A stretch of 64,000 bases of DNA from Polyangiaceae bacterium (GTDB lineage: Bacteria; Myxococcota_A; Polyangia; Polyangiales; Polyangiaceae): the NCBI GenBank assembly GCA_025937835.1, contig JAICQO010000030.1:1-64000 (forward strand), read 5' to 3'. Within the stretch, counting starts at the first letter, position 1. Each line of letters begins with the position of its first letter. The translations under genes were made by a program, and so were the position numbers. This document shows positions 23,989-28,662 of this stretch, one piece after another. The notes below the pieces were generated by a model, which saw nothing but the letters and a program-made list of their open reading frames with translations, made no database searches and had not been told where the DNA came from.

Positions 23989-24606
23989 GTGTTGGACGAC
24001 GGAGAGGCGCTCGAAAAGCTCAAGATCGATGCCCGGCGGGCGTTGCGCGATCGCTACAAGAAGCTCCGCTCGGCGTTTCCAGCGGCGGCCCTCGCCGAGC
24101 GCAGCCAACGTGTGGTGGACGCCATCACCCGCCTCGATGCCTTCCGGAGCGCGAGCTCGCTGGGCTTGTTCTGGCCGATCTCGGCCGAGGTCGATCTGCG
24201 CCGCCTGGACACCGAGGCCCGCGCCCGCAACACCCGCGTCTATTACCCGGTGATGGATCCGAAGCCCGGCGGCTTCAGCACCGGCTTCGCGCTGGTTCGC
24301 GACCCGGCCGAGCTCGTCGAACGCGGCCGGCGCTTCCCCGAGCCCGCTCGGGAGGCACCGCGCGCGGCGCGCGGCGAGATCGAGCTGATCGTCGTGCCGG
24401 CGCTCGCGGTCACCGAGACGGGCCACCGCCTCGGCTACGGCCGCGGCTTCTACGACGTGACCTTGCCGGACTTCTGCCCGCCCGCGTTGACCGTCGTGGT
24501 CGCCTTCGATTTCCAGCTGCTCGCGGAGCTGCCCGTGCTCGACCACGACGTGGCGTGCGACGTCGTGGTCACCGACTCGCGGGTGATTCCTGCGCGGAAG
24601 GCCTAG
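23989..24606 (+). CDS. 5-formyltetrahydrofolate cyclo-ligase
   Basis: This 205-residue MTHFS-family enzyme has a GTG start (23989), N-terminal LRDRYKKLRSAFP, LGLFWPISAEVDL, ELIVVPALAVTETGHRLGYG and the signature GYGRGFYD. It converts 5-formyl-THF to 5,10-methenyl-THF using ATP. The stop overlaps the stop of the convergent Fur gene by 4 bp (CTAG). The 65-bp divergent gap to the glycosyltransferase carries both promoters. Confidence 0.92.
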   Translation: MLDDGEALEKLKIDARRALRDRYKKLRSAFPAAALAERSQRVVDAITRLDAFRSASSLGLFWPISAEVDLRRLDTEARARNTRVYYPVMDPKPGGFSTGFALVRDPAELVERGRRFPEPAREAPRAARGEIELIVVPALAVTETGHRLGYGRGFYDVTLPDFCPPALTVVVAFDFQLLAELPVLDHDVACDVVVTDSRVIPARKA

Positions 24607-25106
24607 GCTTTTTTCTTCCGCGCGTTGCGCTTCTGGCACTCGGCGCACGTCCCGTAGAGCTCGTGCTTGTGCTGGCGCACGTGGAAGCCGTAGCGGTTGG
24701 CGACGCGATCCTGCAGCTCCTCGATCAGCGGCTCTTCGAACTCGGTGATCTTGCCGCAGTCGAGGCAGATCAGGTGGTCGTGGTGGTGCTCTTCGTCGGA
24801 CAGCTCGTAGCGGGTGAAGCCGTCCCCGAACTTGTGCTCCTGCACCACGCCGCTCTCGGTCAAGAGCTTCATGGTCCGATACACCGTCGCGTAGCCGACG
24901 CGCGAGTCCACCGAGCGAACCTGCTTCAACAAGCTGTCGATCGTGATGTGCTCCCCGACGTCGAAGAAGGTGTCGATGATCAGCCGCCGCTGCTCCGTCG
25001 AACGCAGCCCGCGCTTGAGCATGTACGAGTCGAGATCGCGCCGAAGCCGATCGGCGTCTGCATTCGTCAACTTGCCAGCGGAGACCCCGAGTTTCACAGA
25101 GCCCAT
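24603..25106 (-). CDS. Fur/PerR-family metalloregulator
   Basis: The 167-residue product has an N-terminal winged helix (RSTEQRRLIIDTFF, VGYATVYRTMKLL) and metal ligands HHHDH, CLDCGK and CAEC (structural Zn via two CxxC). The regulatory-site residues do not allow a choice between iron (Fur) and peroxide (PerR) sensing by eye. An extra ~20 residues precede the usual start. It lies 80 bp downstream of the degenerate P-type ATPase gene on the same strand, a position that hints at a metal theme. Confidence 0.92.
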   Translation of the reverse strand: MGSVKLGVSAGKLTNADADRLRRDLDSYMLKRGLRSTEQRRLIIDTFFDVGEHITIDSLLKQVRSVDSRVGYATVYRTMKLLTESGVVQEHKFGDGFTRYELSDEEHHHDHLICLDCGKITEFEEPLIEELQDRVANRYGFHVRQHKHELYGTCAECQKRNARKKKA

Positions 25107-25187
25107 CTTTTCAGCAGCGGCGCCCCTGTCAAGCCACGCCGGCAGAGGCCCGGAAACGCGTCGGAAGCCGCGCGAAATCGCCTGTAC

Positions 25188-27407
25188 TTAGGCTTGCGAG
25201 CGGATTCGAAGCAGCGCGCCGAAGCCGCCGAGCATGGCCGCGAGCGGCGGCAAGAGCGGCCCGGCGAGACCCACCGCCGCCATCACGCCCGCCAGGGCCG
25301 GTGGCGCGATCGCGAGCAGCGAGCTCAAGCGCGCCTCGCGGCGTGTGTCGTGCGCCAGCCGAATCGCGTAGGCGGCGTCGCGCACGTCGTCGGACGCGAG
25401 CTGTACGCTCCACTCCGAGGACGTGCTGCCGGCGGAGGCCAGCGCGATCGATACGTTGGCCGCGGCGAGCGCCACGTCGTCCCCCGGGGAGTGACCGGCA
25501 ACGGCGGTGACGGCGCCGCCGTCCGTCAGTCGCCGGATCTCGTCGCCGCGTTCGTTCGGCGGTATTTCGGGTCGCACGTGCTCGACGTCGAGCGCGCGAC
25601 CGAGCGCCTCGCAGGTCTCGCGCGCATCCCCCGACAGCAGCACCGGCTCCACGCCCACGTCGAGCACGTGCTGCACCGCGGCGCGCGCGCCCGGCCTCAA
25701 GCCGTCTTGCAGCCCGAGCAGCCCGATCAGCCGCCCACCGAGCGCGACCCACAACACCATCCGACCCATGGCCTCGAGCTCGCCGACCCGGCGCTCGGCC
25801 GCGGCCACGCTGACGTGCTCCTTCAACATCAAGGCGCGGCTGCCCACGATCAGCTGCTGCCCGCTGGAGGCGACGGCCGTGGTTCCGAGCCCGGGCTCTG
25901 CGATCGGGCTGCGCACGCCGTCGGGCCTGATGCCGCGGGCGCGAGCAGCTCGCAAAATCGAGGTGGACACGGCGTTTTGACCGCCGCCCTCGGCGCCTGC
26001 GATCAGCGCCAGCACCTCGTCGGCGCGGTGCTCACCGAAGGCCTCGATCGACGCCACCTCGGGCTCGCCGAGCAGCAGCGTGCCGCGCGCGCAGAAGGCC
26101 AGCGTCGAGATCTTGCCCGCGCGCTCGAACGCCTGCGCGTCGCGGAAGGCGATGCCTCGGCGCAAGCCGTCGAACACGGCTCGCGCCACCAAGAGCCCGG
26201 ACAACCCGGAGATCAGCGGTCCCGACAGGGCGGCGTGCACGGCGGCGCCGAGCAGCGCGAGCTCGAGCCAGTCGAGCCCGGTTGCGAGCCCGGCGAGCAG
26301 CGCCGCGCCGGTCAAGAACGGCGCAATCCTCTCCACGACCAGCCGGCCCGAGCGTGCGAGCGGCGTGTGCAGATCCGCGCGCCGCCGCGGATCGGTCGAC
26401 AGCCGCGCCCAGGCGCGATCGTGGCCGGCCCAGTTCACGACTACGCGCAGGCTGCCTTCGACGACCTGCGCGCCGGCAACCAACAGCTCGCCTTCGCGGC
26501 GTTCGACGCGCGAAGAAGCGCCGAACCACGGCAGCACCAGCGCCGTGCCGGCAGTCACGGTGGCGTCGACCGGGCAGGTCTCGCCAGCGTCGATCACGAG
26601 CTCCTCGCCCGGTCGCAGATCGCTCGCGGCGACCTGCACGAGCTCGTCGTCGATCACGCGCCGCGACGGCACGTCGAGCTCACGCTGCATCGCGGCGCGT
26701 TCGAGGTCGCTCGCGCGTCGCGCGCGCCGCACGAGCAGCACCGAGCCCGAAGCGATCGTGATCAACAGCGCCGCGAGCGTCATGGCGTAGCTCGCGCTCC
26801 GGTGCTCGGTGACGAACCCCGCCGCGCTCGCCAGCAGCGCCGCGAGCGGCGCGGCCAGGAGCGAGAGCCGGCTCTGCTCGGTGGGATCGCGCTCGCCCAG
26901 GCAGGACTCGGCGAGCAGCGAGCCGGCCGCAACCACGGCCAGCAAGAGCCGCGCCGTCAACGCGGCGCGCGACGGACCCGCGAGCGCCAGCGCGATCGCG
27001 AACGCGCCACCCAGCACCGACAGCACCAGCAGCAGTGAGCCGATCTGCGGCGTCTCGACGGCGGGCGCTTCGGCGCTCGACCCGGGCTCTGGCGCGGGTT
27101 CGGGCGCGGGCGGTGTCTGCCGAGGCTCCGGCACCGGCTCGCGCTCCTTGCGCGGCGGCGGCGCGGGCTCTGGCAGCGCGGGCGCCACGATTTCGATTGG
27201 CGGCCTCGGCTCCGGCGGAGTTCGCACGTGCGGAATCGGCGTGCGCATGACGTGCGGGTCGTAGCGATCGCGGCAAGCGGCGCTGCAGAAATAACGGAAG
27301 CGCTCGCCGAACAAGGCGACGCGCTCGGCGCGCAACGGGTCTACGGGTGCACCGCAGCTCGCGCACGGTACGGTTCCCGTTGCTCGCACGACGCTGGCTG
27401 CGCTCAC
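25188..27407 (-). CDS. Catalytically degenerate P1B-type ATPase-like protein with N-terminal TRASH/YHS zinc finger
   Basis: The 739-residue product comes from a GTG start with GAGGAG upstream. Residues 14-50 (CASCG, then FRYFCSAACRDRY) form a TRASH/YHS-type metal-binding finger, followed by a Pro/Glu-rich linker, about eight TM helices and regions aligning with the A, P and N domains of heavy-metal ATPases. Every catalytic motif is lost. The phosphorylation loop reads FCARGTLL (Cys439 in place of the Asp of DKTGT). The membrane CPC is SGP (395-397). TGES is absent (VLPWFGAS). GDGxND reads GHSPGDD (638-644). The SGD (normally TGD) and downstream fold remain. The frame is intact with no stop, so this looks like a maintained pseudoenzyme, perhaps a metal sensor or scaffold. 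Confidence 0.85.
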   Translation of the reverse strand: MSAASVVRATGTVPCASCGAPVDPLRAERVALFGERFRYFCSAACRDRYDPHVMRTPIPHVRTPPEPRPPIEIVAPALPEPAPPPRKEREPVPEPRQTPPAPEPAPEPGSSAEAPAVETPQIGSLLLVLSVLGGAFAIALALAGPSRAALTARLLLAVVAAGSLLAESCLGERDPTEQSRLSLLAAPLAALLASAAGFVTEHRSASYAMTLAALLITIASGSVLLVRRARRASDLERAAMQRELDVPSRRVIDDELVQVAASDLRPGEELVIDAGETCPVDATVTAGTALVLPWFGASSRVERREGELLVAGAQVVEGSLRVVVNWAGHDRAWARLSTDPRRRADLHTPLARSGRLVVERIAPFLTGAALLAGLATGLDWLELALLGAAVHAALSGPLISGLSGLLVARAVFDGLRRGIAFRDAQAFERAGKISTLAFCARGTLLLGEPEVASIEAFGEHRADEVLALIAGAEGGGQNAVSTSILRAARARGIRPDGVRSPIAEPGLGTTAVASSGQQLIVGSRALMLKEHVSVAAAERRVGELEAMGRMVLWVALGGRLIGLLGLQDGLRPGARAAVQHVLDVGVEPVLLSGDARETCEALGRALDVEHVRPEIPPNERGDEIRRLTDGGAVTAVAGHSPGDDVALAAANVSIALASAGSTSSEWSVQLASDDVRDAAYAIRLAHDTRREARLSSLLAIAPPALAGVMAAVGLAGPLLPPLAAMLGGFGALLRIRSQA

Positions 27408-27423: not shown

Positions 27424-28662
27424 TCAGGAGTAGCTCGAGAGCACGCGGTCCGCGATCTGCAGCGCCTCGTCGATTTCGTGCTCGGTCACCACGAGCGGCG
27501 GCGAGAAGCGCAGCGCTTGGCCGCCGGCGATCGTCACGAGCAGGCCCGCCTGCTGGAACGCGCCCAGCACCGCCCGCGCGTCGACCTCCGCCTTCAGCAC
27601 CAGCGCTTGCAAGAGACCCGTGCCGCGCGCCGTCTCGACCAGCCGCGAGTGGCGCTCGGCCAGCCGCGAAAGGCCCGCGCCGAGCCGCTCACCGAGCGGC
27701 TTCACCCGCGCGAGGATCCCGTCCGCCGTCAGCGCCTCGAGCACGGCCAGCGCTGCGGCCGACGCCAGCGGATTGCCGCCGAACGTCGAGCCGTGGCTCC
27801 CCGGCGGGAGCGCGCCCTCGAGCGCGGCCCGGCAAACCATCGCGCCGATCGGCACGCCGCCGCCGAGGCCCTTGGCGAGCGCGACGATGTCGGCCTTCAC
27901 GCCCTGCTGCTCCATCGACAAGAACGTGCCGGTGCGTCCGACGCCGGTCTGGATCTCGTCGGCGATCAGCAGGCTGCCGTGTTGATTCGTGAGCTGCCGG
28001 AGCTCCTTCAAGAAGCCGGGCGGCGCCGGCAGCACGCCGCCTTCACCCTGCACGGGCTCGACGACGATCGCCGCGACGTCGGGCGCGAGCGCGGCGTGCA
28101 CTGCGCGCGCATCCCCGTAGCTCACGTGCGTCACGTTCGGCAGCTCGCCGAAGCCGTCGCGGTACTTGTCCTGGCCCGTGGCCGCGAGCGCGCCCAGCGT
28201 GCGCCCGTGGAACGAGTTCTTGAAAGCGATCACGCGCAGGCGCGCTGTCTCGCCCTTCGAGTGAAAGTGGCGCCGCGCGAGCTTCAGGCTCGCCTCGATG
28301 GCTTCCGTGCCCGAGTTGCAGAAGAACGCGCGATCCATACCGGTGAGCCGGCACAGCTCCGCGGCGAGTCGCACGTTGGGCTCGTTGAAGTAATAGTTCG
28401 AGACGTGGATCAGCCGCCCTGCCTGCTCCGACAGCGCCCGCACCAGCCGCGGGTGCGCGTGTCCCAGCGCGCTGACCGCGATCCCCGCGTAAAAATCGAG
28501 GTAGCGCTGGCCGGCGTCGTCCCACAGCACCGAGCCCAGCCCGCGCGTGAAGACCAACTCGGGCTGGCGGTAATTCGGATACAGGAACTGCCTTCCGAGC
28601 TCGACGAGTCGTTTCTGGCGCTCGGTCAGGTGCTCGCTAGGAAGCGGCGCCACGGACGTCAT
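27424..28662 (-). CDS. argD: Acetylornithine/succinyldiaminopimelate-type aminotransferase (class III, PLP)
   Basis: This 412-residue class III aminotransferase contains SALGHAHPRLVRAL, CNSGTEAIEASLKLAR, FHGRTLGALAATG, VEPVQGEGGV, LLIADEIQTGVGRTG and the PLP Lys in VALAKGLGGG, with STFGGNPLASAAAL. This set matches ArgD (arginine and/or lysine biosynthesis) within a family that also includes ornithine and GABA aminotransferases. The ATG at 28662 overlaps the TGA of the upstream aminotransferase (ATGA). It is the second gene of a two-aminotransferase unit; no other arg genes are nearby. Confidence 0.85.
   Translation of the reverse strand: MTSVAPLPSEHLTERQKRLVELGRQFLYPNYRQPELVFTRGLGSVLWDDAGQRYLDFYAGIAVSALGHAHPRLVRALSEQAGRLIHVSNYYFNEPNVRLAAELCRLTGMDRAFFCNSGTEAIEASLKLARRHFHSKGETARLRVIAFKNSFHGRTLGALAATGQDKYRDGFGELPNVTHVSYGDARAVHAALAPDVAAIVVEPVQGEGGVLPAPPGFLKELRQLTNQHGSLLIADEIQTGVGRTGTFLSMEQQGVKADIVALAKGLGGGVPIGAMVCRAALEGALPPGSHGSTFGGNPLASAAALAVLEALTADGILARVKPLGERLGAGLSRLAERHSRLVETARGTGLLQALVLKAEVDARAVLGAFQQAGLLVTIAGGQALRFSPPLVVTEHEIDEALQIADRVLSSYS

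Follow-up and report, generated by a model that had tools for sequence, protein, structure and literature searches.

P-type ATPases are normally identified by their invariant catalytic motifs; the locus described here belongs to a family, fixed across a whole bacterial order, in which these motifs are dead. What can a protein with the layout of a heavy-metal pump (P1B-ATPase) be doing when the residues of the pump are gone? We examined this question starting from one gene in a 64,000-nucleotide stretch of a Polyangiaceae genome (hereafter referred to as the window):

25188..27407, minus strand: pseudo-P1B-ATPase gene, 739 aa, GTG start (open frame, AGGAG, P1B homology)

Homology, reading frame and domain order

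The gene has an AGGAG sequence 4 nt 5′ of its GTG start codon, and its GC contents by codon position (0.77/0.56/0.89) are like those of the neighbouring genes. An earlier note on this DNA had described an intact 2.2-kb frame with normal codon use as well as a P1B-ATPase layout, and both descriptions proved correct. LpCopA (3rfu) matched the window protein with an E value of 2e-33 over residues 211–722. The NCBIfam model TIGR01525 gave an E value of 4e-56 and 191 bits, less than its cut-off of 346, and the Pfam matches to E1-E2_ATPase (43 bits) and Hydrolase (29 bits) were both barely over their cut-offs. About eight membrane segments were predicted. Full-length similarity and an identical domain order mark the protein as a P1B-ATPase homologue. 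An AlphaFold model from three sequences (pLDDT 36, pTM 0.26) was too poor for use, and the domains were mapped as follows.

27258..27371, minus strand: N-terminal four-Cys TRASH/YHS-like finger, residues 13–50 (C15, C18, C41, C45; DPLRA motif); from Cys conservation in the family, with a sub-threshold Pfam match to DUF7576
27048..27257, minus strand: Pro-rich linker of low conservation, residues 51–120; entropy and dN/dS (0.25) highest of all regions
26718..27047, minus strand: putative first membrane segments, about four, residues 121–230; hydrophobic stretches that precede the A-domain, the arrangement of P1B ATPases
26373..26675, minus strand: actuator-like domain with TGES deleted, residues 245–345; Pfam E1-E2_ATPase at 249–376, gap columns
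26178..26345, minus strand: membrane pair equivalent to M3-M4, SGP for CPC, residues 355–410; CPC columns unconserved in 141 members
26067..26093, minus strand: replaced phosphorylation motif CARGTLLLG, Cys439–Gly447; Asp at 439 in 0/141
25743..26042, minus strand: remnant of the N (nucleotide-binding) domain with G506-L-G508, E473 and a degraded HP (QNA); GxG kept, dN/dS 0.046
25338..25742, minus strand: second half of the P-domain, residues 556–690; SGD, R620 and D643 conserved, dN/dS 0.050
25476..25496, minus strand: GHSPGDD for GDGxND, residues 638–644; first Asp R/H, second Asp kept
25200..25337, minus strand: last membrane pair, residues 691–736, with neither YN nor MxxSS; the pump-invariant M5/M6 metal-site residues are absent and unconserved

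The N-terminal segment had been read in the earlier note as a TRASH/YHS metal finger. The four ligand positions of such fingers are present with the C-x2-C and C-x3-C spacing, and the cysteines are nearly invariant: among the members with letters at these positions, C15, C18, C41 and C45 were found in 134/134, 134/134, 133/134 and 132/134, respectively. In Pfam, however, the segment matched DUF7576 only, with an E value of 4e-4 that is below the cut-off. The aromatic residue following C-x3-C and the N-terminal position on a P1B scaffold resemble the YHS Cu-ATPases. The first ligand is Cys, as in the L24e-type TRASH domain, which uses four Cys, whereas many YHS domains have Asp there (PMC4626032); the DPLRA motif is peculiar to the present family, and no Pfam model reaches its cut-off over the finger. 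Since all four cysteines are kept, the finger may be a metal-binding or metal-sensing element.

Catalytic and metal-site motifs across the family

We read the motif columns from a joint alignment of 141 orthologues and 35 intact ATPases. In the window protein, Cys439, Ala440 and Arg441 align with the Asp, Lys and Thr of DKTG, respectively, SGP stands at CPC and GHSPGDD at GDGxND, and TGES has lost its T and G, with Ala in the column of its Glu. Cys439, SGP, GHSPGDD and the missing TGES had been pointed out in the earlier note. The replacements extend to the family. Position 439 is C in 96, S in 16, L in 16 and A in 5 orthologues, with other letters in the rest and Asp in none (0/141); the Lys of DKTG was not seen at its column, and its Thr has become Arg in 119/141. 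The T and G columns of TGES are gaps in 139/141, the Glu column is A in 108, and TGE is kept in none, with one lone Glu. Arg (59) or His (57) occupies the first Asp of GDGxND in 116/141. There is no conserved residue at the CPC columns among the 141 orthologues, and the YN of M5 and the MxxSS of M6, invariant in the pumps, are absent and unconserved in the family. The 35 intact pumps keep the DKTG Asp, TGES, CPC, YN, MxxSS and the first GDGxND Asp.

The claim that all catalytic motifs had been replaced was correct for these main substitutions, but it went slightly too far. The second Asp of GDGxND is kept in 138/141 orthologues (a new Asp follows it in 100), the GxG of the N-domain in 135 and 137 of 141, the Gly-Thr of DKTGT is retained, and TGD persists as SGD. 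Conserved features of the family's own are the CARGT motif and an Arg, in 128/141, at the presumed position of the P-domain Lys. The HP of the N-domain has H in 93/141 and P in 125/141. With HP degraded to QNA in the window protein and H present in only those 93, nucleotide binding may have been lost in part of the family.

As judged from the aligned residues, the window protein evidently does without what a P-type pumping cycle needs, namely the phospho-acceptor Asp, the Mg-binding Asp and TGES, and the family evidently has no membrane metal site. Having lost its acid and gained Arg or His, the former Mg site would be a Mg-free, positively charged pocket. The protein is a P1B-ATPase by descent that lacks four of the pump-defining features examined: the DKTGT Asp, GDGxND, TGE[S/P], and CPx with the M5/M6 metal residues.

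Distribution, origin and selection

The window's genome belongs to an order that we take to be the soil-dwelling Sorangium/Sandaracinus group of myxobacteria. A scan of contigs with query-specific patterns returned only two close relatives; the distribution was determined by a profile search, with a profile built from 29 relatives. An orthologue (E ≤ 1e-92) was found in at least 150 of the 184 genomes of the order (97 of the 112 good ones), nearly always as one copy per genome. Matches of at least 335 bits were free of any DKTGT, GDGxND or TGE motif. Outside the order, elsewhere in the class and phylum, match scores went no higher than about 300 bits, and only ordinary pumps were found; the fetched matches below the line (L001–L003, L053–L084 and others) had the ordinary DKTGT, GDGxND and TGE, barring single deviating letters. 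In a tree of 35 dead and 35 intact sequences, a branch with an SH-aLRT support of 100 set all the dead ones apart. These results show, as far as a tree of sequences can, that the family forms one clade of single origin.

Diverged copies in four genomes, G015 (L250), G025 (L288), G279 (L306) and G278 (L316), have lost the whole A-domain while keeping the finger, the membrane part and the N/P parts; they represent three separate lineages (G015, G025 and G278/G279), and their neighbouring membrane part differs too. G083, G030, G024 and G318 contain copies or finger pieces that are apparently cut by contig ends. Because of such diverged copies and fragments, apparent absences from the order are partly false; no copy was found in the three genomes of genus g13 or in G137, G023 and G317.

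Could the protein still pump, by means of a substitute nucleophile or a partner subunit? Its overall layout and the kept second Asp of GDGxND would suit this idea, which is nevertheless scarcely credible, given that the phospho-acceptor position changes freely between residues (C, S, L and A among them), that neither TGES nor any membrane metal ligand survives, and that the A-domain was lost in three lineages.

We then considered selection. Pairwise Nei-Gojobori estimates of dN/dS for the whole gene were low in close pairs (0.05–0.26). Pooled by region over 11 pairs, the values were 0.053 for P1, 0.046 for N, 0.050 for P2 and 0.058 for TM5-6, as compared with 0.087 for the finger, 0.098 for A, 0.117 for TM1-4, 0.130 for TM7-8 and 0.25 for the linker. 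By these estimates, purifying selection is strongest in the former catalytic domains (P and N). The membrane part has a high long-term entropy (2.3–2.6 bits) and no conserved polar site. The constraint on the N/P domains, combined with this entropy, is more in keeping with a cytoplasmic module that binds a ligand or partner and is anchored in the membrane than with a transporter.

The earlier note had proposed selection as a non-pumping protein and had suggested checking this by the conservation of the substitutions among homologues and by dN/dS. The substitutions are shared by 141 aligned sequences from a family present in at least 150/184 genomes, and dN/dS is low; both results strongly support the proposal. 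Close relatives with an intact DKTG, which would have spoken for recent pseudogenisation, were absent (0/141 with Asp); the order-wide orthologues and the low dN/dS led us to reject that possibility. A decaying pseudogene whose frame is open by accident would account for the divergence from the functional motifs, but its probability is negligible in the face of an open frame in nearly every one of at least 150 species, a dN/dS of about 0.1 and conserved new motifs.

The same data bear on the possibility that the HAD-like P-domain has become a new enzyme with another activity, in which, for example, Cys439 serves as the nucleophile. Cys439 is present in 96/141 orthologues within the conserved CARGT motif, and the P and N domains are under the strongest constraint. 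However, Leu, Ala, Val or Met takes the place of this Cys in other members, and the loss of the Mg site makes the usual HAD chemistry unlikely; we regard such an enzyme as quite improbable.

Gene neighbourhood, possible role and relation to known systems

In the window, the pseudo-ATPase gene is flanked by two genes on the same strand:

27424..28662, minus strand: argD-like acetylornithine aminotransferase gene, 16 nt upstream of the pseudo-ATPase gene
24603..25106, minus strand: Fur-family regulator gene, 81 bp downstream of the pseudo-ATPase gene (Pfam FUR, E 2e-36)

At 111 of the 141 loci there is an arg gene no more than 1.5 kb away, in two different arrangements, and several of the other 30 are cut by contig ends. 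In f1, the window's family, the gene follows argD (upstream within 1.5 kb at 76/141 loci) or argD-argF (argF being present at 24 loci). In f3, f4, f5, f9, f10 and f11, and in f2 by G025, it is directly beside argH, mostly right before it, with lysA often next and gaps usually of about 10–25 nt. The A-domain-less copies of G025, G278 and G279 still have argH directly downstream. In several families other than f1 (L103, L106, L100 and relatives), a gene for an L,D-transpeptidase-like protein also adjoins the pseudo-ATPase gene, giving a cluster in the order L,D-transpeptidase, pseudo-ATPase, argH and lysA. The genomes of f6 and f8 have no arg neighbour; a Nudix gene is found downstream in f6 and a Fur gene in f8. 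The Nudix hydrolase gene, located 3′ at about 6–32 nt in f6 and near it (L101, L118, L202, L203, L215, L220), takes the place of arg or Fur genes.

The linkage with arg genes and the roughly eight predicted membrane segments might suggest a transporter or channel that is not driven by ATP, for arginine or ornithine for instance, of which only the membrane scaffold was kept. The membrane segments are, however, among the least conserved parts and have no conserved polar residue, the opposite of what is expected of a transporter, and the A-domain-less members differ in the adjoining membrane part as well. We consider this reading very improbable.

The Fur-family gene noted earlier is indeed next downstream in the window, but across the family it occupies this position at only about 28/141 loci, comprising part of f1, and f8. 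In the window, the gap (25107–25187) contains a TTGACA-like box that precedes the start of Fur by about 27 bp, and CTTGAC boxes occur in the gap at about half of the Fur-linked loci, which suggests that Fur has its own promoter. With 28/141 loci, the case for Fur as the main partner was weakened. No metal-transport gene was seen among the conserved neighbours.

These data, together with the finger, bear on a role in metal homeostasis of the kind proposed in the earlier note (a metal sensor or a regulator of a true ATPase): a metal would be sensed by the finger, and the protein would act on a genuine P1B pump or on the Fur regulator next to it. Favourable to such roles are the four near-invariant Cys, the Fur gene downstream at 28 loci, the true P1B pumps in the same genome as possible partners, and the YHS domain of a Mycobacterium phlei adenylyl cyclase, which is copper-responsive and a probable copper sensor (PMC4626032). 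The conserved neighbours, on the other hand, are dominated by arg genes, and about half of the Fur genes, themselves confined to part of f1 and f8, have a TTGAC box in the gap. The cysteines apart, the roles of metal sensor and regulator of a true ATPase received little direct support, and we judge them unlikely.

Our preferred reading, to which we give roughly even chances, is that a pseudo-P1B-ATPase was fixed in the ancestor of the order and acts as a membrane-anchored sensor or adaptor, not as a pump. Its non-pumping part is strong, as far as sequence comparison reaches; the sensor or adaptor job is what we infer for the rest. The N/P module, with its GxG loop and with Arg/His for Mg ligands, could accommodate a nucleotide or some other anion as its ligand, with no hydrolysis. 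The four-Cys finger would carry a bound metal and serve as an interaction or sensing element. The output would probably fall on the co-encoded arginine and lysine metabolism, for example by tethering or regulating the enzymes at the membrane; this is the weakest and most speculative step. Taken to this length, the sensor or adaptor reading would make the order-wide single-copy family one in which the ion-pump machine has become a ligand sensor or scaffold anchored in the membrane, with a basic pocket for the Mg site and the metal finger kept, and linking metal or nucleotide status to the biosynthesis of arginine, a tentative idea whose chances we rate as modest at best.

Indeed, a gene neighbourhood can persist by inheritance, so that the arg linkage may exist without a functional tie. 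Linkage of argH and lysA without the pseudo-ATPase gene occurs in other orders of the class; an ancestral arg/lys cluster into which the gene was inserted, and which was later split on either side of it, would therefore explain the data with no functional link. An active ancestor beside argH in those orders was considered and rejected, as argH-lysA stands there without the gene and no ancestor was found. At four loci from other orders of the class (L291–L294), the protein encoded before argH looks Fic-like by eye, and no pseudo-ATPase is present.

Among known systems, the window protein is closest to the P1B heavy-metal ATPases (CopA/CopB/ZntA; TIGR01525, PDB 3rfu and 4umv), with which it shares the domain order, the membrane layout and A/P/N homology over residues 183–723, whereas its catalytic and membrane metal-site motifs are replaced and its score stays at 191 against a cut-off of 346 bits. 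Domain-based annotation (E1-E2_ATPase, Hydrolase) would assign a pump to about 150 genomes of myxobacteria, for which the sequence leaves no basis. We found no dead family of bacterial P-type ATPases described in the open-access literature searched. Saier's scheme includes functionally uncharacterised type 1 P-ATPases, such as families 27 and 32, from Myxococcus xanthus (PMC3924187). These are likewise uncharacterised myxobacterial P-ATPases; no member of the present family was found outside its own order. The present family offers a clean natural experiment on the use of a P-type scaffold without pumping, and, through the tie to arginine genes, its role can be tested in those members of the order that grow in culture. 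In pseudoenzymes from signalling families (pseudokinases, for example), the catalytic residues are lost, but the fold is kept under strong selection, along with some of the ligand site. The pseudo-P1B-ATPase resembles them in each of these respects.
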